Origin: Jiulongibacter sediminis | Lineage (GTDB): Bacteria; Bacteroidota; Bacteroidia; Cytophagales; Spirosomataceae | Length of the DNA stretch: 64,000 bases | Reading direction: 5' to 3' | Assembly (NCBI RefSeq): GCF_001306455.1 | Contig: NZ_LGTQ01000006.1 | Location: forward strand, 1 to 64,000 | Part shown: piece after piece, positions 7,160 to 34,713 of the stretch | Layout of the letters: each line of letters starts with the position of its first letter | Numbering within the stretch: position 1 is the first letter of the stretch | The notes under the pieces: model-generated | Databases searched by the model: none | What the model was told of the DNA's origin: nothing | The model's input: only the letters and a program-made list of their open reading frames with translations | Position numbers and translations under genes: made by a program

Positions 7160-7804
7160 TAATTTGATAGCTCTTAATATTTCCCGTTTCCGTGGTGGGC
7201 CTGGGTGTTTTTCAACCATGAATCCAGCAGCTTTTAGGTTTCGCTGAACGTAGCCTTTTGAGCAATAGGTTGTCAAAACTCCTCCCTCCTCCATGAGGGA
7301 ATAGAGTTTCTCAAAAATCTCCAGTGTCCATAGTTCCGGTTGAGACTCCGGTGCAAAGGCGTCGTAATAGACCAAATTGAATTTTTGATCGGTTTGAAAA
7401 TTTTGAAGTGGGGTATTGTACTTTATAAAACTAAATATGTCATTGACCTCTACCTTTTCTCCCCACGGGAGAGCATGTAATTGCGAAGCATCAAAATTGA
7501 GTTCACCTATCATTTCTTCGGTGATTGGAAAAGCTTCAAGCCCGGTGTAATTCACTTTTTTTGACTGGCTTTCAGCAAAGTTTTTTGTCAATAGGGCATT
7601 CAACCCCGTGCCAAAACCCATTTCCAATAGGTTTATCTCCTCAAAACGCTCGAAAGCAAAACAGAGCCCGAGGTCGATAAACACGACCTCAGACTCCTTT
7701 TCGGCTCCAAAAATGGAGTGGTAATGCTGATCAAAACATTTGCTGTAAACGGTAGTGCTGCCGTCAGCTGTTATTTTAATATGCTGTTCGTCTTTACTCC
7801 GCAC
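7145..7804 (-). CDS. mnmD: tRNA 5-methylaminomethyl-2-thiouridine methyltransferase (MnmD)
   Basis: 219-aa SAM-dependent methyltransferase of the MnmD/DUF752 family. It corresponds to the methylating half of E. coli MnmC and forms mnm5s2U at wobble U34 of tRNA. The SAM-binding motif LEMGFGTGLN is at residues 60-69. The family motif YYDAFAPESQPELWT is at about 146-160. No FAD domain (MnmC C-half) is fused. The start is GTG at 7804, overlapping the end of the M61 peptidase gene by 11 bp, so translation is probably coupled. The stop codon lies inside one copy of a palindromic repeat. Confidence 0.9.
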   Translation of the reverse strand: MRSKDEQHIKITADGSTTVYSKCFDQHYHSIFGAEKESEVVFIDLGLCFAFERFEEINLLEMGFGTGLNALLTKNFAESQSKKVNYTGLEAFPITEEMIGELNFDASQLHALPWGEKVEVNDIFSFIKYNTPLQNFQTDQKFNLVYYDAFAPESQPELWTLEIFEKLYSLMEEGGVLTTYCSKGYVQRNLKAAGFMVEKHPGPPRKREILRAIKLSWHD

Positions 7805-24620: not shown

Positions 24621-24911
24621 ATGAAAAAAACTTTTTACAATCTTAACAGTCTCCAGCACATGTCTAATGAAGAAACCAGAACCAGGATCATAGCCAATTT
24701 TAATTCCAAAAAATTGGATGACACCAATCAAAGTGAAGCTCTGGAGGACAAAAAAGCTGAGGAGAATGAGAGTGCAAATACAATAGTAAAAGATGCTCTG
24801 AAATATCCCTTCCAATTTCTATTTAAAGCTTTAGAAACGTCATCAATCAGACCAGAGGGATACAACCATAAAAGAAAATCAGTCTTTACAGCTGTTACGC
24901 TGTCATTATAG
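24621..24911 (+). CDS. Small hydrophilic protein of unknown function
   Basis: 96 aa, no signal peptide or membrane helix and no recognisable domain. It is rich in Lys, Glu, Asn and Ser, with an acidic central stretch (EALEDKKAEENESAN) followed by DALKYPFQFLFKALETSS, which could form an amphipathic helix. It has an ATG start and lies 69 bp upstream of the hybrid kinase on the same strand, so it could be the first gene of that operon. Coding is judged only from length, composition and position, so it may be spurious. Confidence 0.45.
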   Translation: MKKTFYNLNSLQHMSNEETRTRIIANFNSKKLDDTNQSEALEDKKAEENESANTIVKDALKYPFQFLFKALETSSIRPEGYNHKRKSVFTAVTLSL

Positions 24912-24980
24912 GCATTTCATATAAAAAACTGACCGGGCAGATCGGTTTCAGATTCATTATTCAGGTAAAAACTCTTCATT

Positions 24981-27900
24981 ATGGAAGCAAGTCATTCTTT
25001 ATATTCGAAAAACGTTCGATCCACACCTTTCTCCATCGTCAAATCCGGCAGTTTGGATTACTACGAGAGTATTTTTAAGAATATCTCAGATCTTATAGGG
25101 GTTCTTGGATTTGATGGTTACCTCAAATCGGTAAATCCGTCATTTCGAAGAACCCTGCTTTGGGGAGAAAATGATTTGCTCCAAACCAAGGCGATTGAGT
25201 TTATTCACCCGGATGACCTTTCTATCGTTAAACAGGAAATAAGTAAAATAAACGGTTCAAAAAGAGCACTTTCATTTAAAGCCAGATTAAGAACAAAGAA
25301 AAATGAATATGTCCTTCTTCACTGGTCCTTTAAAGTCGACTATAAAAACGCTCTTATTTATGCTACCGGACAAAATTTAACCCCTCTTGAAAAGGCAAAG
25401 TCGGAGCTTCAGCTCGCCAAAACGATGCTGGAAGAGACTAACAGAATTGCTCTGGTAGGTGGTTGGCAATTAGAAAACAAGACGAAAGAGATAACATGGA
25501 GCTCCACTACACGCGAGATTCATGAGGTAGATGAAGATTATAAAGTCACTCTGGAAAATGCAATTAGCTTTTTCCCAGAGGGGCAAAATAGAAATAAGAT
25601 AGAAGAGCTGGTAAGCTCCGCACTGAACGATAATATCCCATATGAAACAGAGTTGGAAATTATCACTCTCAAGGGGCGTAGAAAATGGGTAAGAGTAAAA
25701 GGCGAGCCCGTTTTCGAAGGAAATGAGTGTATTAAACTGATAGGAACGATACAGGATATTAGCAGGGAAAAGGAAAGTGAGTTCAACCTGAGAAGGGTCA
25801 ACTCTCACCTGCAAGCCATTATGGAAGCGAGCACTGAGGCCGCTATTATAGCTCTGGATAGTACCGGAACAATAATGTTTTTTAATTCCGGAGCCGAAAT
25901 GCTTCTTGGTTATACAGCCAATGAAATGGTCGCACAAAAGAAGCCTTTGGACTTTATTGACCCTCAAACATTAATAGAGAAAGCAAACCGGCTTTCTAAA
26001 AAGTATGGACAAAAGGTACAACCCGACATTGATTGCTTAACCTTTCTTTCCAAAAAAGGAATTGTAGATACGCAGGAATACACTTTCATAAGCCGTGACG
26101 ATTCCAGAATGGAGGTTGAGGTTTCAATTACACCAATAAAGAATAGTCATGATAACATCATTGGTTATGTAAGTATTGGCCTCGATGTTACGGAGAAAAA
26201 AGAAAGAGAAAGAAGAATCATTGATAGCGAAAATCAATTCAGAATCTTCTTCAACTCTTCTCATGTGGTTTTATACACTCATGACCTTGAAGGCAAGTTC
26301 CTGAGTATGAACTCAAGAGGAACTACCCTTCTTGGCTATACCGAGGAAGAAATTATAAACAAGAACATTCTGGAAATTGTACCTCTGGAGTCAAAGAAAA
26401 GCTTACCCGAGTATCTGAATGAAATCATAGAAAATGGTAAGTCTAAGGGACTTATGCAGATCGTTGATAAAAATGACAATAAAATAACCTGGATGTACCA
26501 TAACGTGCTTGCTGAATACGCTGATGGCACAAAGTATGTCATCGGTAATGTTGTTGATATCACCGATCGGATAGAATTAGAGAATGACCTTCTGGAGGCA
26601 AAGAGAACTGCAGAGAAAAACGCTCAGATGAAGAACCTGTTTCTTGCTAATATGAGTCATGAAATAAGGACTCCTATGAATGCGATCACGGGTTTTGGGC
26701 GACTTCTTCATGAAAGCCCAAACCTGAGTGAAGAACAAAAAGATTATGTTGAGTCCATAAATATTGCTTCCTCAAACCTTCTTACGCTAATCAATGACAT
26801 TCTTGATTTTTCCAAAATCGAATCGGGTCAACTTGAACTTGAAAGCATTCAGTTCAAACTTCAGGATCAAATCAATTATGTCCGGAAAATTTTGACTCCT
26901 GCCGCTGAGAAAAAAGGACTGAGGTTCAAATGCATGGTAGACTTCACTATACCTGAGGTGGTTCAGGGTGACCCCACCCGATTAAATCAGGTACTGGTAA
27001 ATCTGATCAATAATGCGATTAAGTTCACTGAAGAGGGTTATATACAGCTTTCCGTTCAGGCCATTAAGAATGAGAACGGTATAAATCTGATAGAATTTGA
27101 AATCAAAGACACCGGTATAGGTATTCCTGAAGACAAAAAGGAAGCCATATTTGACCGCTTTACACAAGCCAATACCAATACGACCAGAAAATACGGCGGA
27201 ACAGGACTAGGCCTTAGCATTTCAAAGTCTTTGATAGAAATGCAGGGAGGCCAAATTGAAATTGAAAGTACAGTAGGAAAAGGTTCTGTTTTCCGGTTCA
27301 GTATTCCGTTTATTACTCCAAGTGTTATTCAACTGGAAGACGAGAAAAAAGAAAATCAGGAAATTGAGTTCAACTGCAAAAATCAAATTCTGCTTGTTGA
27401 AGACAATATACTGAATCAGAAACTCGCGATTAAGGTCTTATCCAATAAGGGTTTTGTTGTCGATCTGGCAGAAAATGGTCTGGTAGCTCTGGAAAAACTT
27501 CAGAGTAAGTCGTACGATCTCATTCTGATGGATTTACAAATGCCGGAAATGGATGGGTATCAAACCTCTCATACTCTAAGAAATGAGCTTCAAATTAATA
27601 CTCCGATCATGGCCATGACAGCTCACTCGCTGGTCGGTGAAAAAGAAAAGTGTCTGAAATTTGGTATGAATGATTATATCACCAAGCCTTTTGATCCTAA
27701 AGTACTCTTCAGAAAGATCAAAGAACTGACAGAAAGAGAAATTCCGGAAAAAGAAGAAGTTATCGCTGAAAAACTTGACCTGAGCTATTTGTATTCTTTG
27801 AGTAATCGCGACAAAGACTTTGAAAAAGAAATACTCGAAACTTCATTGATCACCATTCCTGAGGACATGAATAAGTTGCAGGATGCCATTCAGAATTTTG

Positions 27901-28103
27901 AGTATAATGAGATCAAGGCGATCGCCCATAAGCTTAAATCTTCGTTTATGACCATCGGAATGGATGCCAACGAGGAGCTACATCAGCTTGAATATGAAGA
28001 CATTGCGGAATATAAAATACTGGAAGAAATCTACTATTCAGTTAAAGAGAAATATGCCCGATCCAGAAAGGCCGTCATGGCTGAACTTGAGATCAACTAC
28101 TGA
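24981..28103 (+). CDS. PAS-domain hybrid histidine kinase with receiver and HPt domains
   Basis: 1040 aa, apparently cytosolic: no membrane helix is seen. About four PAS domains (roughly 25-140, 150-265, 270-405, 410-535) precede a HisKA domain whose phosphorylated histidine is H560 in NMSHEIRTPMNA. The HATPase follows (about 655-770; N-box NLINNAIKFTEEGY, G-boxes DTGIGIPEDKK and GGTGLGLSISK). A receiver domain has D851 in LILMDLQMPEMDG. A C-terminal HPt domain has H983 in AIAHKLKSSF. A complete His-Asp-His relay therefore sits in one chain and lacks only the final Asp acceptor. The next gene, a single-domain regulator 26 bp downstream, is the obvious acceptor. The PAS ligand is unknown. Confidence 0.95.
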   Translation: MEASHSLYSKNVRSTPFSIVKSGSLDYYESIFKNISDLIGVLGFDGYLKSVNPSFRRTLLWGENDLLQTKAIEFIHPDDLSIVKQEISKINGSKRALSFKARLRTKKNEYVLLHWSFKVDYKNALIYATGQNLTPLEKAKSELQLAKTMLEETNRIALVGGWQLENKTKEITWSSTTREIHEVDEDYKVTLENAISFFPEGQNRNKIEELVSSALNDNIPYETELEIITLKGRRKWVRVKGEPVFEGNECIKLIGTIQDISREKESEFNLRRVNSHLQAIMEASTEAAIIALDSTGTIMFFNSGAEMLLGYTANEMVAQKKPLDFIDPQTLIEKANRLSKKYGQKVQPDIDCLTFLSKKGIVDTQEYTFISRDDSRMEVEVSITPIKNSHDNIIGYVSIGLDVTEKKERERRIIDSENQFRIFFNSSHVVLYTHDLEGKFLSMNSRGTTLLGYTEEEIINKNILEIVPLESKKSLPEYLNEIIENGKSKGLMQIVDKNDNKITWMYHNVLAEYADGTKYVIGNVVDITDRIELENDLLEAKRTAEKNAQMKNLFLANMSHEIRTPMNAITGFGRLLHESPNLSEEQKDYVESINIASSNLLTLINDILDFSKIESGQLELESIQFKLQDQINYVRKILTPAAEKKGLRFKCMVDFTIPEVVQGDPTRLNQVLVNLINNAIKFTEEGYIQLSVQAIKNENGINLIEFEIKDTGIGIPEDKKEAIFDRFTQANTNTTRKYGGTGLGLSISKSLIEMQGGQIEIESTVGKGSVFRFSIPFITPSVIQLEDEKKENQEIEFNCKNQILLVEDNILNQKLAIKVLSNKGFVVDLAENGLVALEKLQSKSYDLILMDLQMPEMDGYQTSHTLRNELQINTPIMAMTAHSLVGEKEKCLKFGMNDYITKPFDPKVLFRKIKELTEREIPEKEEVIAEKLDLSYLYSLSNRDKDFEKEILETSLITIPEDMNKLQDAIQNFEYNEIKAIAHKLKSSFMTIGMDANEELHQLEYEDIAEYKILEEIYYSVKEKYARSRKAVMAELEINY

Positions 28104-28129
28104 TTGAACACCATCTAAATTTTAAGGAA

Positions 28130-28507
28130 ATGAAAATATATGTATTTGAAGATGAGGCTCTCCTGTTAAAATCATTGGAGTTTCGGTTAAGTAAAGAAGG
28201 TTATGATGTTAATTGTTTTAGCAACGGTCTTGAAGCTAAACAAAAGCTTCAGGAAGAACTGCCTGACCTGATCATCACCGATATCATGATGCCATTTCTC
28301 AATGGTCTTGAACTGATCAGTTTTGTCAGAAATGATCTGAAATCTCAGGTTCCAATCATTGTTCTAAGTGCTGCCGGGTTGGAAAAAACAGTTTTAGAGG
28401 CTTTTAATCTGGGAGCCGATGATTTCGTTTCCAAGCCTTTCAGCCCGAATGAATTACTTATCAGAATCAAGAAAATGTCACATCGTATAAAGATATCCGT
28501 TATGTAA
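28130..28507 (+). CDS. Single-domain response regulator
   Basis: 125-aa receiver with no output domain. Acidic pocket ED in FEDEALL (residues 7-8), phosphoacceptor D51 in LIITDIMMP, switch Ser/Thr in IIVLSAAG and K in VSKPFSP are all present. It lies 26 bp after the HPt-bearing hybrid kinase and 20 bp before the HEAT-like protein. Lacking a DNA-binding domain, it should act by protein-protein contact. The neighbouring membrane-bound HEAT-like protein and glycosyltransferase are reasonable targets (inference). Confidence 0.93.
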   Translation: MKIYVFEDEALLLKSLEFRLSKEGYDVNCFSNGLEAKQKLQEELPDLIITDIMMPFLNGLELISFVRNDLKSQVPIIVLSAAGLEKTVLEAFNLGADDFVSKPFSPNELLIRIKKMSHRIKISVM

Positions 28508-28527
28508 TACCCTCAACGCCTTTCCTA

Positions 28528-29598
28528 ATGCTTACGCTCAACCTAATATTAAACATTTTACTCCTTGGAATCGTACCCTTTTTTTGGGGTCTCGCATTGT
28601 GCTTTGCCGTGGCGGGTACAGGCTTCATTGCCTTCGTATTGGTCAGCCGAAAACGGAAAAATCTACATGCCGCTCAGCTGCAGGAAATCAGTGCCAAATG
28701 CCAACCCTTCCTCACCGAACTCGCTTTTGAAGGAACAATACCTGAAGAATACAGAGATCTGGAGAAACAATTGAGAAGCACAAACAATGGAAAATGGATA
28801 ATTCTGAATGAGCTGATTAAAATCAGAAAATATTTTCAGGGAGAAGCCGCCAGTTACATTGAAGAATACTACACAAAGAACAGGCTTTATAAGCTCAGCC
28901 TCAACAAATTATATTCGACAAAACAACATCAAAAAATAGTAGCCATCAACGAGATCATGGACATGAACTATCTGGGAGCAACTCGTAGTTTATTGCAATT
29001 TATCCACAAAGAAAAGAGCCCTGAGCTTGTCTCAAATGCCCTTATCGCACTCACTAAACTTGATTATAAACTAGGGCTTAACAGAATAATAGAACAGGAC
29101 ATTTACCTCTCAGACTGGTTTCAGTTACAAGTGATTAAGATACTCGATGAAGGTAAAGTCTATGAAATCCCACCGCTGGTTAAATGGACTAAAAAAAGTA
29201 CATCACATGCGTTAATGGGTCTTCGTCTGCTGATTTTTTCGGGAGCAATGGACCAAATGGATGAACTAAGTTCTTTACTCAATCATGAGAATGATAAATT
29301 AAGACTGGAAACCATAAAGGCGTTCAGGACACTAGAGTACGACGAAATATCTTTTACCCTGATTCTTAGGTATTACAATGAACCCACGCGTAATAAATGT
29401 GAGATCATCAGAACATTGGAGGTACTGAATTACAAACAGAACCTTGCCTTTATAAGATTATGTGCAAAAAGCGATGATAGTGAAATTCAGCGAGTAGCAA
29501 AAGAGGCTCTGAGAAGATTGACTCCGGAGGAAATACGACTAGGAGTAAATGCTCCCATTATTCATTTATTCACACCCACCTTACAAAGAGCTGTTTAG
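28528..29598 (+). CDS. Membrane-anchored HEAT-repeat-like protein
   Basis: 356 aa. One strong N-terminal membrane helix (about residues 1-38: LNILLLGIVPFFWGLALCFAVAGTG in part) is followed by a basic turn (SRKRKNLHAAQ) and a wholly alpha-helical cytoplasmic part. From about residue 130 there are repeated ~30-residue helical hairpins (VAINEIMDMNYLGATRSLLQFI, SPELVSNALIALTKL, LRLETIKAFRTLEYDEISFTL, SEIQRVAKEALRRL) of HEAT/armadillo type. No catalytic motif is seen. Its stop is 1 bp before the glycosyltransferase ATG, implying translational coupling. A scaffold role linking the response regulator to the synthase is my inference. Confidence 0.75.
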   Translation: MLTLNLILNILLLGIVPFFWGLALCFAVAGTGFIAFVLVSRKRKNLHAAQLQEISAKCQPFLTELAFEGTIPEEYRDLEKQLRSTNNGKWIILNELIKIRKYFQGEAASYIEEYYTKNRLYKLSLNKLYSTKQHQKIVAINEIMDMNYLGATRSLLQFIHKEKSPELVSNALIALTKLDYKLGLNRIIEQDIYLSDWFQLQVIKILDEGKVYEIPPLVKWTKKSTSHALMGLRLLIFSGAMDQMDELSSLLNHENDKLRLETIKAFRTLEYDEISFTLILRYYNEPTRNKCEIIRTLEVLNYKQNLAFIRLCAKSDDSEIQRVAKEALRRLTPEEIRLGVNAPIIHLFTPTLQRAV

Positions 29599-29599
29599 C

Positions 29600-31018
29600 A
29601 TGGATCAAACACTGCACTATATATCGCTTTATGTTCAGTATGGAATAATTTTCTATGCCATTTTCCTGATGAGTTCTTATCTCATCTTGTCTGTTATTTC
29701 CATTCAGGCTTTGTATAAATACCTGAGAATTGCGGAGTACACCGACCATAAGGATTTACTACCCTCTGACATCAGCCCCAAAATATCACTTCTTGCTCCG
29801 GCTTATAATGAGGGGCTCACCATTGTGGAAAACATCAGATCATTATTATCTCTTCACTATTCAGATTTTGAGGTAATCATCATCAATGATGGCAGCAAAG
29901 ACGATACCTTGATCAAAGCGATTGAAGCATACAAGATGGTGCCAACAGACTTCATTGTCAGTAATGACATCCCATGTAAGGCAATAAGAACCGTTTACAA
30001 ATCAAGCCTTCCTGAATTTTCAAACCTATTACTGGTAGATAAGCTCAATGGAGGCAAAGCAGATGCCTTAAATGCAGGAGTCAATGTTTCTACGGCTGAT
30101 TATATCACCTGCATCGATGTAGATTGTATTCTGGAACAAGACTCCCTTTTAAAACTGGTAAAGCCCTTTATTGACTCTGAAAAGAGAGTGATTGCGACGG
30201 GTGGGGTGATCAGGATTATTAACTCCTGTGAAATAAAGAATGGTTCAATTACTCAAATCAATGTACCCAAAAATCTTATTGCAAGAATGCAGGTACTGGA
30301 GTACCTAAGAGCTTTTTTACTTGGAAGAATGGCCTGGGGAAACCTGAGTGGTTTACTCATTATTTCGGGTGCCTTTGGCATGTTTGATAAGGAAATTGTA
30401 AAAGCTGTCGGAGGGTATGATTCTACCACCGTAGGTGAAGATATGGAGCTCGTGGTACGTATGAGACGCTACATGGTTGAAAAAGAAATTCCCTATTGTG
30501 TAAAATTCATCCCTGACCCCCTCTGCTGGACTGAAGCCCCTGAAAACACCCAAATTCTTGGCAGACAACGAAATCGCTGGACTCGTGGAACAGTAGAAAC
30601 CCTATGGCTACACCGCAAAATGTTCTTTAATCCGAAATATGGCATTATGGGGCTTTTGAGTTATCCCTATTGGTTCTTCTTTGAGTTTCTGGCACCTATT
30701 CTTGAATTTATAGGGATAGTATGGATGATTTTTGCCACCATTTTTAATCTCGTAAACTGGCCTTATTTCATAGCTATAACTGCCTGCGTTTACACCTTTG
30801 CTGTCATGCTAAGTATGTTAGCTATTCTCGCAGAGGAGATTACGTTTTATCAGTACAAAAACAGTCGTGACATCTGGAAACTCGTAGGGGCCGGCCTTAT
30901 GGAACCTTTCGTTTATCACCCATTTCTCGTTTGGTCAGCCATGAAAGGTCACGTCGATAAAATAAAAGGAAAAAAATCATGGGGAGAAATGACCCGTGTT
31001 GGACTAAAAAGCACTTGA
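29600..31018 (+). CDS. Processive family-2 glycosyltransferase (PgaC/IcaA/YaiP-like)
   Basis: 472 aa from ATG 29600, which follows the previous stop by 1 bp; an earlier in-frame start at 29549 would lie inside that gene. An N-terminal membrane helix is followed by a GT2 domain with LLAPAYNEGLTI, VIIINDGSKDDT, the DxD-type CIDVDC, GEDMELVVRMRR and the QRNRWTRG motif (QxxRW) of processive beta-glycan synthases. Three to four C-terminal helices (about 355-440) complete the PgaC/HmsR/cellulose-synthase topology. It should polymerise and translocate a polysaccharide across the inner membrane. The sugar cannot be deduced. Confidence 0.9.
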   Translation: MDQTLHYISLYVQYGIIFYAIFLMSSYLILSVISIQALYKYLRIAEYTDHKDLLPSDISPKISLLAPAYNEGLTIVENIRSLLSLHYSDFEVIIINDGSKDDTLIKAIEAYKMVPTDFIVSNDIPCKAIRTVYKSSLPEFSNLLLVDKLNGGKADALNAGVNVSTADYITCIDVDCILEQDSLLKLVKPFIDSEKRVIATGGVIRIINSCEIKNGSITQINVPKNLIARMQVLEYLRAFLLGRMAWGNLSGLLIISGAFGMFDKEIVKAVGGYDSTTVGEDMELVVRMRRYMVEKEIPYCVKFIPDPLCWTEAPENTQILGRQRNRWTRGTVETLWLHRKMFFNPKYGIMGLLSYPYWFFFEFLAPILEFIGIVWMIFATIFNLVNWPYFIAITACVYTFAVMLSMLAILAEEITFYQYKNSRDIWKLVGAGLMEPFVYHPFLVWSAMKGHVDKIKGKKSWGEMTRVGLKST

Positions 31019-31020
31019 AA

Positions 31021-33396
31021 ATGAAAACCTATAACAAAACCAATTTCCAATTTCTGCTACTTAACGCCCTTACTATGGGCAGTTTACTGAGTATTACTGA
31101 GCTTGCTTATAAATTCTTTTTCCAGCATAGTCATTTGGAAAATATCGCTCTGACTATCGCTCAGATAATCTCATTTAACTTTGTGTTTGCAGCCGGAATA
31201 ACAATGCTTTTGGCCCTGCCATTTTTGCTAATGAGCATGATAAGCAGTCGTGCCTCCAAAACTTTTCTGGTCCTCACCGGAATAATCATTCTCCTTTCCA
31301 CTATTGGATTAAATCAATATGCTGCCCAAACCAATTTGCCTCTTGGCAGTGACCTTTATGGGTACAGTTTTGATGACATTCTTTTTATCACCGGCTCCAG
31401 TGCAGAGTTTAGTCTTAGAGCTATTCTGATGTTTCTTCTAATACCGGCCATTTACGCTACACTTGCATTCTTAAAGATTTACCAAAACAAGGTGATCGGT
31501 ATTGTTTCATTAGTGATACTGATTACGTCTATCGCATCAGTACCACTTCTTTTAACTGATCTGACCGATGCATCTAAAACCGCTTATTTTCTCAATGATA
31601 CCAGACAATATCTGAAGGACAATCAAAAAGGAGATGACCAAGAGTTTCTGGCAAACGGTGATGAATTCCCTTTAATGCATCCTTTCAATGCAGCAGAAAA
31701 CGGACTCACAGAACACCTCAATCTCACCGAAAACAAGCCTAATATAGTTCTTTTGATTGTTGAAGGTTTAGGGAGTGACTTTATGGGCAAAAGTGCACAA
31801 TACCCAGGCTTTACACCTTTCCTTGATTCACTGAGTGACAACTCTCTCTATTTCAGCCGCTTTCTAAGTAATACAGGTAGATCTTTCGGGGCCTTGCCAT
31901 CCATTCTTGGTTCTGCTCCGTTCGGGAAAAACGGGTTCCTTGATCTGGAAACTCTACCTGATCATATGTCGCTTATTTCCGTTTTAAAGCAAAACGGATA
32001 CATCACTTCGTATTATGAAGGAGGTAACTCTTCCTTTGACAATAAAAACCGTTATCTGGTCAATGAGGGTATTGATAACCTGATAGACGAAACAAGTTTT
32101 GATCAGAACTATGTAAAAACAAAGTCAACCAAAGACGGCTTTAGTTGGGGATATCCTGATTCTGAAATATACAGGAAAACACTCGCTTCTCTTCCGGAAA
32201 ATGGTCAGCCAAGGTTAGACATTGTTCTATCGATATCAAACCACGAGCCTTTTCAGTTTCCGGGTAAAGAAGAATACCTGAATCAGGTTAACCAGCTGAT
32301 GAAGTCAAGGCCTGAGCTGGCTGGTAAAAGGAAAACCATTGAAGAAAATCCAGAGGTTTTTGCAAGCTTACTTTATACCGACGCCAGTATTCGATCCTTT
32401 ATAGACGGACTGAAAAAGAGGTCAGATTTTGAGAATACCATTGTACTCATAACCGGTGATCACCGATTAATTCCTGTTTCAATGAAAAATCAGATTTGCA
32501 GATACCATGTACCTCTTCTGGTTTACAGTCCACTGGTTAAAGAACCTAAAGAGATCGGGACCATTGCCTCACACATGGATATCGCACCAGCGATTACCGG
32601 AATGCTGGCTAAAGGATATACGATGAAAACTCCGGAAAATGTACCATGGCTGGGCCTGGGTTTATCACCAAACAGTGATAGAGAAATTCCGCTGATGAAA
32701 TATAAAGGCTCATTTACAGACTTCATCAAAGGAGACACCTTCATTGCACAGGGAAAGTCCTATAAAATAGGTAAGAACCTTAGCCTTTCTGTTGGAGTAG
32801 AAAAGGGAGAGACCAACCAAACACTTCAGGCATTTGAACTCGCAAAAAAAAGCGGAAGATATACCACGACGAATAACAAGATCATTCCTGAAAATTTGAA
32901 AATGAATATTTCAAATCTAATCAAAATCAGCAAAGAAGATCAGAAGCGTATTGACGAACTCACCAAAAACTTGAGTCAGGGCGAAATCTATTATATGGCC
33001 AGAGATTCGGCACATAATAAGAACTATGAAATCGCTCTTCTTTTACTTGACCATCTTAATAACCTGAATTTTAACCATTACGATGGCCGAACTCTACGCG
33101 GCAGAATTTATGGATGGAGCGACAGAACCGAACAGGCTGAACAGGAACTCAAATATGTAATCAATCGAAGCCCATTGTACAGTGATGCATATTCTGCCCT
33201 GCTCGATCTTTATTGGTGGAACAGTCTCGGGAATAAGGCAAAAGAGGTAGCCGCCCTTGCAAGAGAGAGATTCGCTAACAACCGCGACTTCTTAAATACC
33301 GTGGCCTCAAAAATGGCCAGATTTGATCCGGCGGATTTTGAAGAAAAGGTTCTTCCCGTTTCCGATCAACTATCATTTAATCAAACGACGCCATGA
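31021..33396 (+). CDS. LtaS/sulfatase-fold membrane enzyme with C-terminal TPR module
   Basis: 791 aa from ATG 31021, 2 bp after the glycosyltransferase stop. Five or so N-terminal membrane helices (about 10-185) precede an extracytoplasmic alkaline-phosphatase-superfamily domain (about 235-550). This has NIVLLIVEGLG (metal Glu), a Thr nucleophile candidate in NTGRSFGALPSILG, and ITGDHR near residue 480 (metal Asp and His). This is the architecture of LtaS, OpgB and related phosphoglycerol/phosphoethanolamine transferases. The last ~150 residues are unusual: TPR-like repeats (about 660-770) resembling those of the next gene's product. It probably decorates the neighbouring glycan; the substituent is unknown. 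Confidence 0.85.
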   Translation: MKTYNKTNFQFLLLNALTMGSLLSITELAYKFFFQHSHLENIALTIAQIISFNFVFAAGITMLLALPFLLMSMISSRASKTFLVLTGIIILLSTIGLNQYAAQTNLPLGSDLYGYSFDDILFITGSSAEFSLRAILMFLLIPAIYATLAFLKIYQNKVIGIVSLVILITSIASVPLLLTDLTDASKTAYFLNDTRQYLKDNQKGDDQEFLANGDEFPLMHPFNAAENGLTEHLNLTENKPNIVLLIVEGLGSDFMGKSAQYPGFTPFLDSLSDNSLYFSRFLSNTGRSFGALPSILGSAPFGKNGFLDLETLPDHMSLISVLKQNGYITSYYEGGNSSFDNKNRYLVNEGIDNLIDETSFDQNYVKTKSTKDGFSWGYPDSEIYRKTLASLPENGQPRLDIVLSISNHEPFQFPGKEEYLNQVNQLMKSRPELAGKRKTIEENPEVFASLLYTDASIRSFIDGLKKRSDFENTIVLITGDHRLIPVSMKNQICRYHVPLLVYSPLVKEPKEIGTIASHMDIAPAITGMLAKGYTMKTPENVPWLGLGLSPNSDREIPLMKYKGSFTDFIKGDTFIAQGKSYKIGKNLSLSVGVEKGETNQTLQAFELAKKSGRYTTTNNKIIPENLKMNISNLIKISKEDQKRIDELTKNLSQGEIYYMARDSAHNKNYEIALLLLDHLNNLNFNHYDGRTLRGRIYGWSDRTEQAEQELKYVINRSPLYSDAYSALLDLYWWNSLGNKAKEVAALARERFANNRDFLNTVASKMARFDPADFEEKVLPVSDQLSFNQTTP

Positions 33397-34640
33397 AAAA
33401 GATTTTGACTTTCTTTCTCATCCTACTCTTCTCTGGAAAAGTAACGTCTCAGGAACTCAATATGGATCCTGACGAGGCTTTTTCCATTGCCAGAGAAATG
33501 GCCTTTGATTCGAAAAGACAAGAGTCGAAAGAGCTATTGACAAGGATTACTAACAATTATCCAACTTATGGAGATGTTCGGCTATTTCTGGCTGTCCTGT
33601 ACGGATGGGAAGAGCAGTATAAGTTAGCCCGAAAGGAGTTTCAGATATTGCTTGACCAGGAACCTCAGGAGAAGGAATACTGGGTGAGTTATATAAAAAA
33701 TGAAATGTGGGCAGAGCAATATTCCAATGTCAAAGAGCTCAGCAGAAAAGCACTTGAAATTTTCCCTGACGATCCTGATTTTGTGATTTTCAAGGCAAAG
33801 ACAGAAAGGGATAACCGGGAACTAACCAGAGCCATACAAACCTGTAAAAAGTTTTTAAGCAAGTATCCCGAAAATGAAAAGATGCAGGAGTTTTATTCTT
33901 CCCTAAGAGAAGGCTTTGTACTGAATCAGATATCTGCATCGTACTCGATTGATCATTTCAGTGACATTTACGACCCCATGCATTATTACACTGTTTCATA
34001 TAACCGGGATACTCCATTTGGAAGTATCATCGGAAAGATGAACGTGAATCAGAAGTTTGAAACCACCGGAACGCAGTTTGAAATAGATTCATACCCAAGT
34101 ATTGCAGACGGACTTTATGCCTATGTAAACGTGGGGTATTCGCAATCGTCTATATTTCCAGGCTGGCGTTACGGATTTCAGCTGTACAAATCTTTACCAA
34201 AGAGTTTTGAAGCTTCGGCAGGTATAAGGTCTTTGAAGTTTGGGGACAGCTTCACGCATATTTTGACAGGATCATTGGGAAAATACGTTGGGAACTCATT
34301 CTTTTTCTTCACACCGTATTTGATTCCTTCTGATGAAGGTTGGAGTAAATCAGGGAACATTACCTTCCGAAATTACGGTGAGAATGAAGACATTTTCTGG
34401 GCCATAACCGCCGGAGCCGGATTTTCACCGGAGATTAACCGTTTTGGAATCAACGCCGAAACATTGCCCATCATTAACCTGAAATCTCAAAAGCTAGGCA
34501 TTGCCAATAACTTCAAAATTAAAAGCGTAAACCATGTCGTAGGCCTTAGTTTATCAGTTTCAAGACAAGAAAGCATTTTTGACCCCGGTCAATATTTTCT
34601 TATTAGCTCCGCCGGAGTTTCTTACTCGTTTGGCTTTTAG
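33393..34640 (+). CDS. YaiO-family outer-membrane beta-barrel protein with TPR
   Basis: 415 aa. A signal peptide (about 1-19, ending KVTSQ) and two to three TPR units (about 25-165) carry the YaiO pattern YxDxRxxxxxxYGW near 59-72. A C-terminal barrel (about 180-415) of alternating aromatic/polar strands ends in the outer-membrane-type SSAGVSYSFGF with terminal Phe. The ATG overlaps the upstream stop by 4 bp. In E. coli, yaiO lies close to a GT2 glycosyltransferase gene, yaiP; here the linkage to a PgaC-like enzyme is direct. Export or anchoring of the polysaccharide is the likely role. Confidence 0.88.
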   Translation: MKKILTFFLILLFSGKVTSQELNMDPDEAFSIAREMAFDSKRQESKELLTRITNNYPTYGDVRLFLAVLYGWEEQYKLARKEFQILLDQEPQEKEYWVSYIKNEMWAEQYSNVKELSRKALEIFPDDPDFVIFKAKTERDNRELTRAIQTCKKFLSKYPENEKMQEFYSSLREGFVLNQISASYSIDHFSDIYDPMHYYTVSYNRDTPFGSIIGKMNVNQKFETTGTQFEIDSYPSIADGLYAYVNVGYSQSSIFPGWRYGFQLYKSLPKSFEASAGIRSLKFGDSFTHILTGSLGKYVGNSFFFFTPYLIPSDEGWSKSGNITFRNYGENEDIFWAITAGAGFSPEINRFGINAETLPIINLKSQKLGIANNFKIKSVNHVVGLSLSVSRQESIFDPGQYFLISSAGVSYSFGF

Positions 34641-34660
34641 ACCACATTTTGACGAATAAT

Positions 34661-34686
34661 GATCTATAAATTGAATTTTATAGATC
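34661..34686. terminator. Terminator closing the polysaccharide operon
   Basis: 10-bp perfect stem GATCTATAAA (34661-34670) with TTTATAGATC (34677-34686), a 6-nt loop, followed by ATCTTTT. It lies between convergent genes and could work in both directions. Confidence 0.75.
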
Positions 34687-34713
34687 ATCTTTTAAGGTTT
34701 CTTGATCTATATC

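Follow-up and report, generated by a model that had tools for sequence, protein, structure and literature searches.

A candidate exopolysaccharide synthase locus with a stand-alone receiver and a HEAT-repeat protein in Jiulongibacter sediminis and other Bacteroidota

The stretch of DNA analysed here (the window) comprises 64,000 nucleotides of Jiulongibacter sediminis (contig NZ_LGTQ01000006.1) and carries six genes whose products would sense a signal and make, decorate and secrete a polysaccharide: a hybrid histidine kinase, a receiver, a HEAT-repeat protein, a family-2 glycosyltransferase (GT2), a membrane enzyme of the sulfatase fold and a YaiO-family barrel (Table 1). All six lie on the plus strand, with gaps of 26, 20, 1, 2 and -4 bp from kinase to YaiO, and the packed arrangement, coordinates and gaps given in a first-pass annotation of this DNA were reproduced exactly. 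That annotation had also placed a terminator at the end of the operon; a hairpin is indeed found there, although it is absent from the list of the consensus scan. A possible seventh gene, a 96-codon open reading frame at positions 24621-24911, has no Pfam or NCBIfam family and no match in 38 other genomes or in the collected loci and was dropped from the operon.

Table 1 Genes and other features of the candidate locus in the window.
Feature	Position	Strand	Basis
Hybrid histidine kinase	24981..28103	+	3 or 4 PAS, HisKA, HATPase, REC, Hpt motif (Pfam/NCBIfam, motif reading)
Stand-alone receiver, without output domain	28130..28507	+	Response_reg alone; Asp51 and Lys102 present
HEAT-repeat protein	28528..29598	+	Residues 1-41 hydrophobic, RKRK next, then about 8 helical repeats
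Family-2 glycosyltransferase (GT2), processive-type	29600..31018	+	ATG at 29600; NDGS/DVDC/GED/QRNRW; best named match PgaC/IcaA
LtaS/OpgB-like sulfatase-fold membrane enzyme	31021..33396	+	ATG at 31021; Sulfatase/LtaS match; 4 or 5 hydrophobic segments
YaiO-family outer-membrane beta-barrel, N-terminal tetratricopeptide repeat (TPR)	33393..34640	+	PF19413, TIGR04390
Terminator-like AT-rich hairpin 3' of YaiO	34659..34688	+	12-bp stem, -13.8 kcal/mol, z -2.77

The kinase has no transmembrane-like segment and had been read as a full His-Asp-His relay in one protein. Its HisKA domain (with SHEIRTP at residue 559), HATPase and REC were matched, and Hpt is borderline, with 24.2 bits against a cut-off of 24.6 and the motif AHKLKSS present at residue 982. 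Hpt was over the cut-off in six of nine other kinases scanned (L043, L028, L067, L090, L093 and L112) and was not found at E <= 1e-5 in the other three (L026, L073 and L078), and sensor domains differ among the scanned kinases (PAS, GAF, CHASE3). For the receiver, Response_reg is the sole match and nothing follows the fold, in agreement with the annotated lack of an output domain. The frame is shorter than 200 amino acids in 110 of the 112 loci measured, and among 113 aligned receivers the phosphorylated position is Asp in 109 and the conserved Lys is present in all 113.

The four remaining products had been annotated as a membrane-anchored alpha-repeat protein, a processive glycosyltransferase with QxxRW, a sulfatase-fold membrane enzyme and an outer-membrane barrel with TPR, and all four descriptions held. 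The Pfam match of the first to HEAT_2 is below cut-off; HEAT-type repeat proteins were recovered later by profile search, and a model built from a 58-sequence alignment (predicted local distance difference test, pLDDT, 92.8; predicted template-modelling score, pTM, 0.83) is a helical-repeat solenoid in which a long N-terminal helix, residues 2-68, is followed by paired helices. With this model, a fold search returned solenoids of the HEAT/ARM type whose TM-scores were low (0.14-0.48 of the query). Membrane proteins are commonly oriented by the positive-inside rule, and by this rule the RKRK that follows the hydrophobic N terminus would place the HEAT repeats in the cytoplasm, on the same side as the receiver and the catalytic domain of GT2. 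The window protein deviates from its relatives at two conserved sites, Q133 (W in 45 of 58) and S224 (N in 53 of 58). Long extra N-terminal stretches are seen in the HEAT proteins of L022, L028, L036, L053 and L057, of which the two scanned (L022, L028) gave no Pfam support for an identity as SPOR or LysM; much longer C-terminal parts occur in L011, L014, L015, L018 and L020, and the one scanned (L015) has a further HEAT match.

The GT2 has the motifs NDGS, DVDC, GEDMEL and QRNRW and transmembrane-like segments near both ends. Its best NCBIfam match, the PgaC_IcaA equivalog, scores 137.8 bits, far below the cut-off of 422.3, and a search of the PDB by sequence gave partial matches only. In a profile search of 395 genomes of the phylum, members of the family scored at least 347 bits and all other proteins 166 bits or less; judged by these scores, the GT2 is a separate family. 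The LtaS-like enzyme matches the structures of VP1736 and LtaS in the PDB and the sulfatase fold in Pfam, scores 57.3 bits against 970 required for the LtaS equivalog NF053595, and has a C-terminal stretch that resembles the TPR part of YaiO proteins. The barrel is clearly YaiO (PF19413, 203.8 bits against a cut-off of 23.9; TIGR04390, 183.8 against 32), with TPR, and reaches 21.1 bits against the cut-off of 366.65 with the PgaA model.

The first-pass annotation had made its reading of the genes as one system depend on their linkage in other genomes. The window genome and those of 38 relatives were searched, and five of these 39 have a HEAT match, the window genome being one of the five. Two loci, L006 from the same genus and L007 from the same family, have all six genes in identical order between different flanking genes, with identities to the window (L006 and L007, respectively) of 57 and 49% for the kinase, 67 and 63% for the receiver, 31 and 32% for HEAT, 74 and 68% for GT2, 47 and 48% for the LtaS-like enzyme and 63 and 56% for YaiO. 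The HEAT profile has matches in 74 of the 395 genomes; the 57 regions with at least 34.7 bits, together with L006-L009, gave 61 HEAT-found loci. GT2 is present in 58 of these, in every case immediately 3' of HEAT, and was not found beside HEAT at L061, L065 and L066. A second set was collected with GT2 alone as query and consists of the best 80 of 437 confirmed relatives; it is therefore tilted to close relatives. HEAT is immediately upstream in 76 of the 80, and the four exceptions are two GT2 genes at contig edges (L083, L138), one HEAT gene cut off by the end of its contig (L121) and one weak HEAT match that is in place (L146). The linkage of HEAT and GT2 on which the reading hung was thus found from both sides, and since the two genes are adjacent in 134 of 138 GT2-bearing loci overall (58 HEAT-found and 80 GT2-found; 136 distinct at 97% DNA identity of GT2), the gene set is not due to chance. 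YaiO is present in 121 of the 138 (50 of 58 and 71 of 80) and the LtaS-like gene in 66 (28 of 58 and 38 of 80); in 21 loci (12 and 9, respectively) GT2 and the LtaS-like enzyme are fused into one natural polypeptide.

The hosts of the GT2-found set include Flavobacterium, Chryseobacterium, Pedobacter, Sphingobacterium, Maribacter, Chitinophaga, Algoriphagus and metagenome-assembled genomes (MAGs) of Bacteroidales. The system looks widespread in Bacteroidota. Outside names of this phylum there are one record from Ignavibacteriae, one Gemmatimonadetes MAG (L146) and one record labelled Beijerinckiaceae (L144), which is perhaps mis-binned. Tandem pairs of GT2 genes stand behind a single HEAT gene in L133, L134, L137, L143 and L144, two of them from Chitinophaga, and in L092 from Flavobacterium omnivorum two HEAT-GT2 units adjoin, with HEAT at 7389 and 13928.

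Receiver and kinase differ in how firmly they are tied to this pair. In the 112 loci that have 6 kb or more of flank on either side of HEAT-GT2, a stand-alone receiver (a frame of fewer than 200 amino acids) lies within 6 kb in 106 (57 of 59 GT2-found, 49 of 53 HEAT-found). The six misses are two receivers just past 6 kb (L012, L013), one in a 387-amino-acid frame (L084) and three loci with none (L010, L060, L145); in 296 kb of flank more than 7 kb away, no stand-alone receiver was found. For the kinase core the count within 6 kb is 66 of the 112 loci, and it stands immediately upstream in 55; the outer flank, by comparison, contains 4 in 494 kb. The two sets have one locus in common (L024 and L092 are identical in sequence), and L023 and L025 are 97% alike; with one copy of each pair removed, 110 loci remain, of which 104 have the receiver and 66 the kinase. 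Thus, of the two, the receiver is the constant companion of the synthase and the kinase is not. The co-occurrence of six families that had been expected is therefore found in part: receiver, HEAT, GT2 and usually YaiO go together, the LtaS-like gene is optional and the kinase is least fixed. From gene neighbourhoods, it is strongly supported that the genes form one system, whose core is receiver-HEAT-GT2, usually with YaiO, often with the LtaS-like enzyme and, in over half of the loci, with a kinase nearby.

More distant branches were represented by 40 of the 50 family-level GT2 places in the 395 genomes that lie beyond the first set; ten were left out. Of these 40 loci, 39 have HEAT-like sequence ahead of GT2, with scores of 14-30 bits in 11, and 27 have a stand-alone receiver no more than 8 kb away; YaiO and the LtaS-like gene are present in 23 and 9, respectively. 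At E <= 1e-10, GGDEF matches occur in 189 of the 395 genomes; there is none in the genome of the window, and they are found in 2 of 50 main-set genomes that have the system. Deep loci have the receiver in 17 of 20 cases where the genome is without GGDEF and in 10 of 20 where GGDEF is present, a contrast that is confounded by taxonomy. On the GGDEF counts, the system is mostly, not only, in genomes without enzymes of cyclic di-GMP (c-di-GMP) metabolism. In two deep loci the receiver slot upstream of HEAT-GT2 is taken by a receiver-GGDEF-receiver protein (L165, 6407-8029; L170, 6533-8092), with a degenerate GGDEF motif that reads WEADTF or WESDMF when aligned by eye; each of the two genomes has a single GGDEF match, which by count is therefore the slot protein. 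PgaD (PF13994) was over the cut-off in none of the 395 genomes, the window's own included, with three weaker matches and a positive control in E. coli. Control of the window synthase by PgaD or c-di-GMP is thus unsupported.

Neighbouring genes give a hint at the polymer. Genes of a DUF4838 cluster (an identity found in five of five members scanned) occur in 19 loci, e.g. L012, L019, L023, L133 and L139, and in 18 of the 19 the gene follows YaiO immediately; its GH163-like product is possibly a polymer-trimming enzyme. In a published study a DUF4838-type protein is named GH163, an endo-beta-N-acetylglucosaminidase, and in a Polaribacter co-culture the GT2 gene MED152_03905 was raised 8.8-fold and the DUF4838 gene MED152_03915 18.5-fold (PMC9870897). 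The two are two locus tags apart, so YaiO may lie between them and the locus may be an instance of the present system. From these neighbours and from PMC9870897 and PMC10154615, an N-acetylglucosamine (GlcNAc)-containing polymer is therefore a hint only. Another recurrent neighbour is a protein of 382-417 amino acids with a hydrophobic N terminus and the consensus VDKTV...GQEH, seen in 17 loci, among them L008 (10982-12148), L016, L033, L069, L074 and L131, and in addition in L147. It has no Pfam family (two members scanned) and no NCBIfam family (one member), and its model (pLDDT 79.9) resembles glutamine-amidotransferase/ThuA folds only weakly (best E 0.0034).

Taken together, we think it rather probable that the locus encodes synthase-dependent exopolysaccharide secretion gated by the phosphorylated receiver via a membrane-anchored HEAT partner. 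The kinase would hand phosphate along the His-Asp-His chain to the stand-alone receiver, which, once phosphorylated, would bind the cytoplasmic HEAT solenoid tethered beside GT2. HEAT would then activate or assemble GT2, filling the place that PgaD and c-di-GMP have in the synthesis of poly-N-acetylglucosamine (PNAG). GT2 would polymerise and secrete a beta-glycan in which GlcNAc is possibly present; at the periplasmic side, phosphoglycerol or a similar phospho-group would be attached by the LtaS-like enzyme, and the TPR-YaiO barrel would export the polymer. We infer the gating of GT2 by the receiver through HEAT from analogy, and the order kinase, receiver, HEAT, GT2 is proposed because HEAT stands in the position of a partner, the receiver offers an input and there is a precedent in EpsW-EpsZ, described below.

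Over 75 loci the pairwise distances of receiver, HEAT and GT2 correlate at 0.81-0.86, with partial correlations of 0.57 for HEAT-GT2, 0.44 for receiver-HEAT and 0.35 for receiver-GT2. This co-variation fits the proposed order and is weak evidence for it; that the correlations are uncorrected for shared ancestry is the first of several points that weigh against gating through HEAT. HEAT is the fastest-evolving of the three proteins (mean identity 24%, versus 43% for the receiver and 52% for GT2), unlike what is expected of a tight interface, and in 46 of the 112 loci a kinase is absent from the 6 kb on either side. Among the 40 deep GT2 genes, 13 lack a nearby receiver although HEAT-like sequence remains, and in L179-L183, from GGDEF genomes, an NAD-dependent epimerase/dehydratase (five of five by Pfam) lies upstream of HEAT-GT2 and there is no receiver; the HEAT-GT2 pair thus persists where no receiver was found. 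Half of the deep loci (20 of 40) lie in GGDEF genomes. As to the polymer, the authors of the Polaribacter study interpret the induced genes as use of outside polymers, not synthesis (PMC9870897), and the GH163 activity described in PMC10154615 acts on N-glycans.

Some of these points would be explained if HEAT constitutively assembled or stabilised GT2, in the way PgaD does for PgaC, with the receiver acting on another target, e.g. its own kinase, or serving as a phosphate sink. HEAT-GT2 outlives the receiver in deep branches (39 versus 27 of 40), and the loci with the epimerase gene speak for the same view. In the main set, however, the receiver is near HEAT-GT2 in 106 of 112 loci and the kinase in only 66; the receiver is bound to the synthase more than to the kinase, and we consider a purely structural role of HEAT unlikely, if the best of the alternatives. 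Transcriptional control, with the receiver as a phosphorelay link to a DNA-binding regulator encoded elsewhere, seems improbable: the hybrid kinase does end in a receiver and an Hpt motif, which is a relay architecture, single-domain receivers can act in relays (PMC12802240), and transcripts of the two Polaribacter genes were both raised (PMC9870897), but in the order of the relay the stand-alone receiver follows the Hpt of the kinase itself, as a terminal acceptor would, a point taken from architecture only. Least probable of all is a phosphorylated glycan that is periplasmic or linked to lipid, resembling teichoic acids or osmoregulated periplasmic glucans, with YaiO as an accessory: the similarity to LtaS/OpgB and the 21 GT2-LtaS fusions would suit it, but the LtaS-like gene is optional whereas YaiO is usual, and the GT2 bears the motifs of a processive synthase and transmembrane-like segments.

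Synthase systems are often switched by c-di-GMP, through an allosteric site or a partner protein, and post-translational control of synthase-type matrix polysaccharides has been described mainly via this nucleotide (PMC12802240, PMC8461298). If gating by the receiver through HEAT is true, the receiver-HEAT switch would explain how the synthase is activated in bacteria that mostly have no GGDEF protein. It is tempting to speculate, and the chances for and against seem evenly balanced, that the phosphorylated receiver and the membrane-tethered HEAT solenoid are an old, phylum-wide allosteric switch of synthase-type polysaccharide secretion, the counterpart in Bacteroidota of PgaD/PilZ-c-di-GMP, mainly in organisms without diguanylate cyclases; the degenerate-GGDEF receivers, seen in a few deep branches, would then be an intermediate or else a parallel solution. 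The question is accessible in culturable Flavobacterium: locus L091 of F. johnsoniae CI04 has the order kinase-receiver-YaiO-HEAT-GT2.

Synthase-dependent polysaccharide secretion is a known kind of system, to which the locus appears to belong; its control module appears undescribed. The phosphoglycerol transferases LtaS and OpgB share the sulfatase fold and membrane segments with the present enzyme, which differs in that, in Bacteroidota, it accompanies a GT2 synthase or is fused to it, and in its C-terminal TPR-like stretch. E. coli yaiP/yaiO has a barrel of the same family, and YaiP is presumably the GT2 neighbour of yaiO; we know of no receiver, HEAT or LtaS-like gene there. The phosphoethanolamine transferase BcsG, which acts with the cellulose (bcs) system of E. 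coli, we take to be kin to the sulfatase/LtaS-like fold. As in our locus, bcs joins a GT2 synthase to a membrane transferase that possibly decorates the polymer (PMC8461298); here the enzyme is LtaS/OpgB-like instead and at times fused to GT2, and no PilZ or other Bcs family was matched by Pfam among the six window proteins. The PNAG systems (pgaABCD, icaADBC) are alike in having a processive-type GT2 and a non-catalytic membrane partner beside it; TPR with an outer-membrane barrel may be a further likeness, in that export through a TPR barrel would parallel PgaA (PMC9384988). They are unlike the present locus, which has no PgaD, a receiver and HEAT as partner, an additional LtaS-like enzyme and a GT2 well below the PgaC_IcaA cut-off; nor did the Pfam scan find a deacetylase among the six window proteins.

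Among the matches listed in a literature search, whose coverage mostly left out subscription papers, there was no work on the present gene set, and the main text of an operon survey of synthase systems (PMC7112194) makes no mention of HEAT repeat, Bacteroid-, YaiO or response regulator. The closest precedent for the proposed control is EpsW of Myxococcus xanthus, a single-domain receiver that, when phosphorylated, activates the transferase EpsZ post-translationally (PMC12802240). The present locus resembles this type in that a receiver lacking an output domain, its phosphorylation site intact, is encoded beside a polysaccharide enzyme. EpsZ, in contrast, belongs to a Wzx/Wzy pathway as a phosphoglycosyl transferase and is contacted directly, whereas here the enzyme is a synthase-type GT2 and HEAT would intervene. 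If the proposed gating is true, the present system would add to EpsW-EpsZ a second example of polysaccharide synthesis under the control of a receiver.

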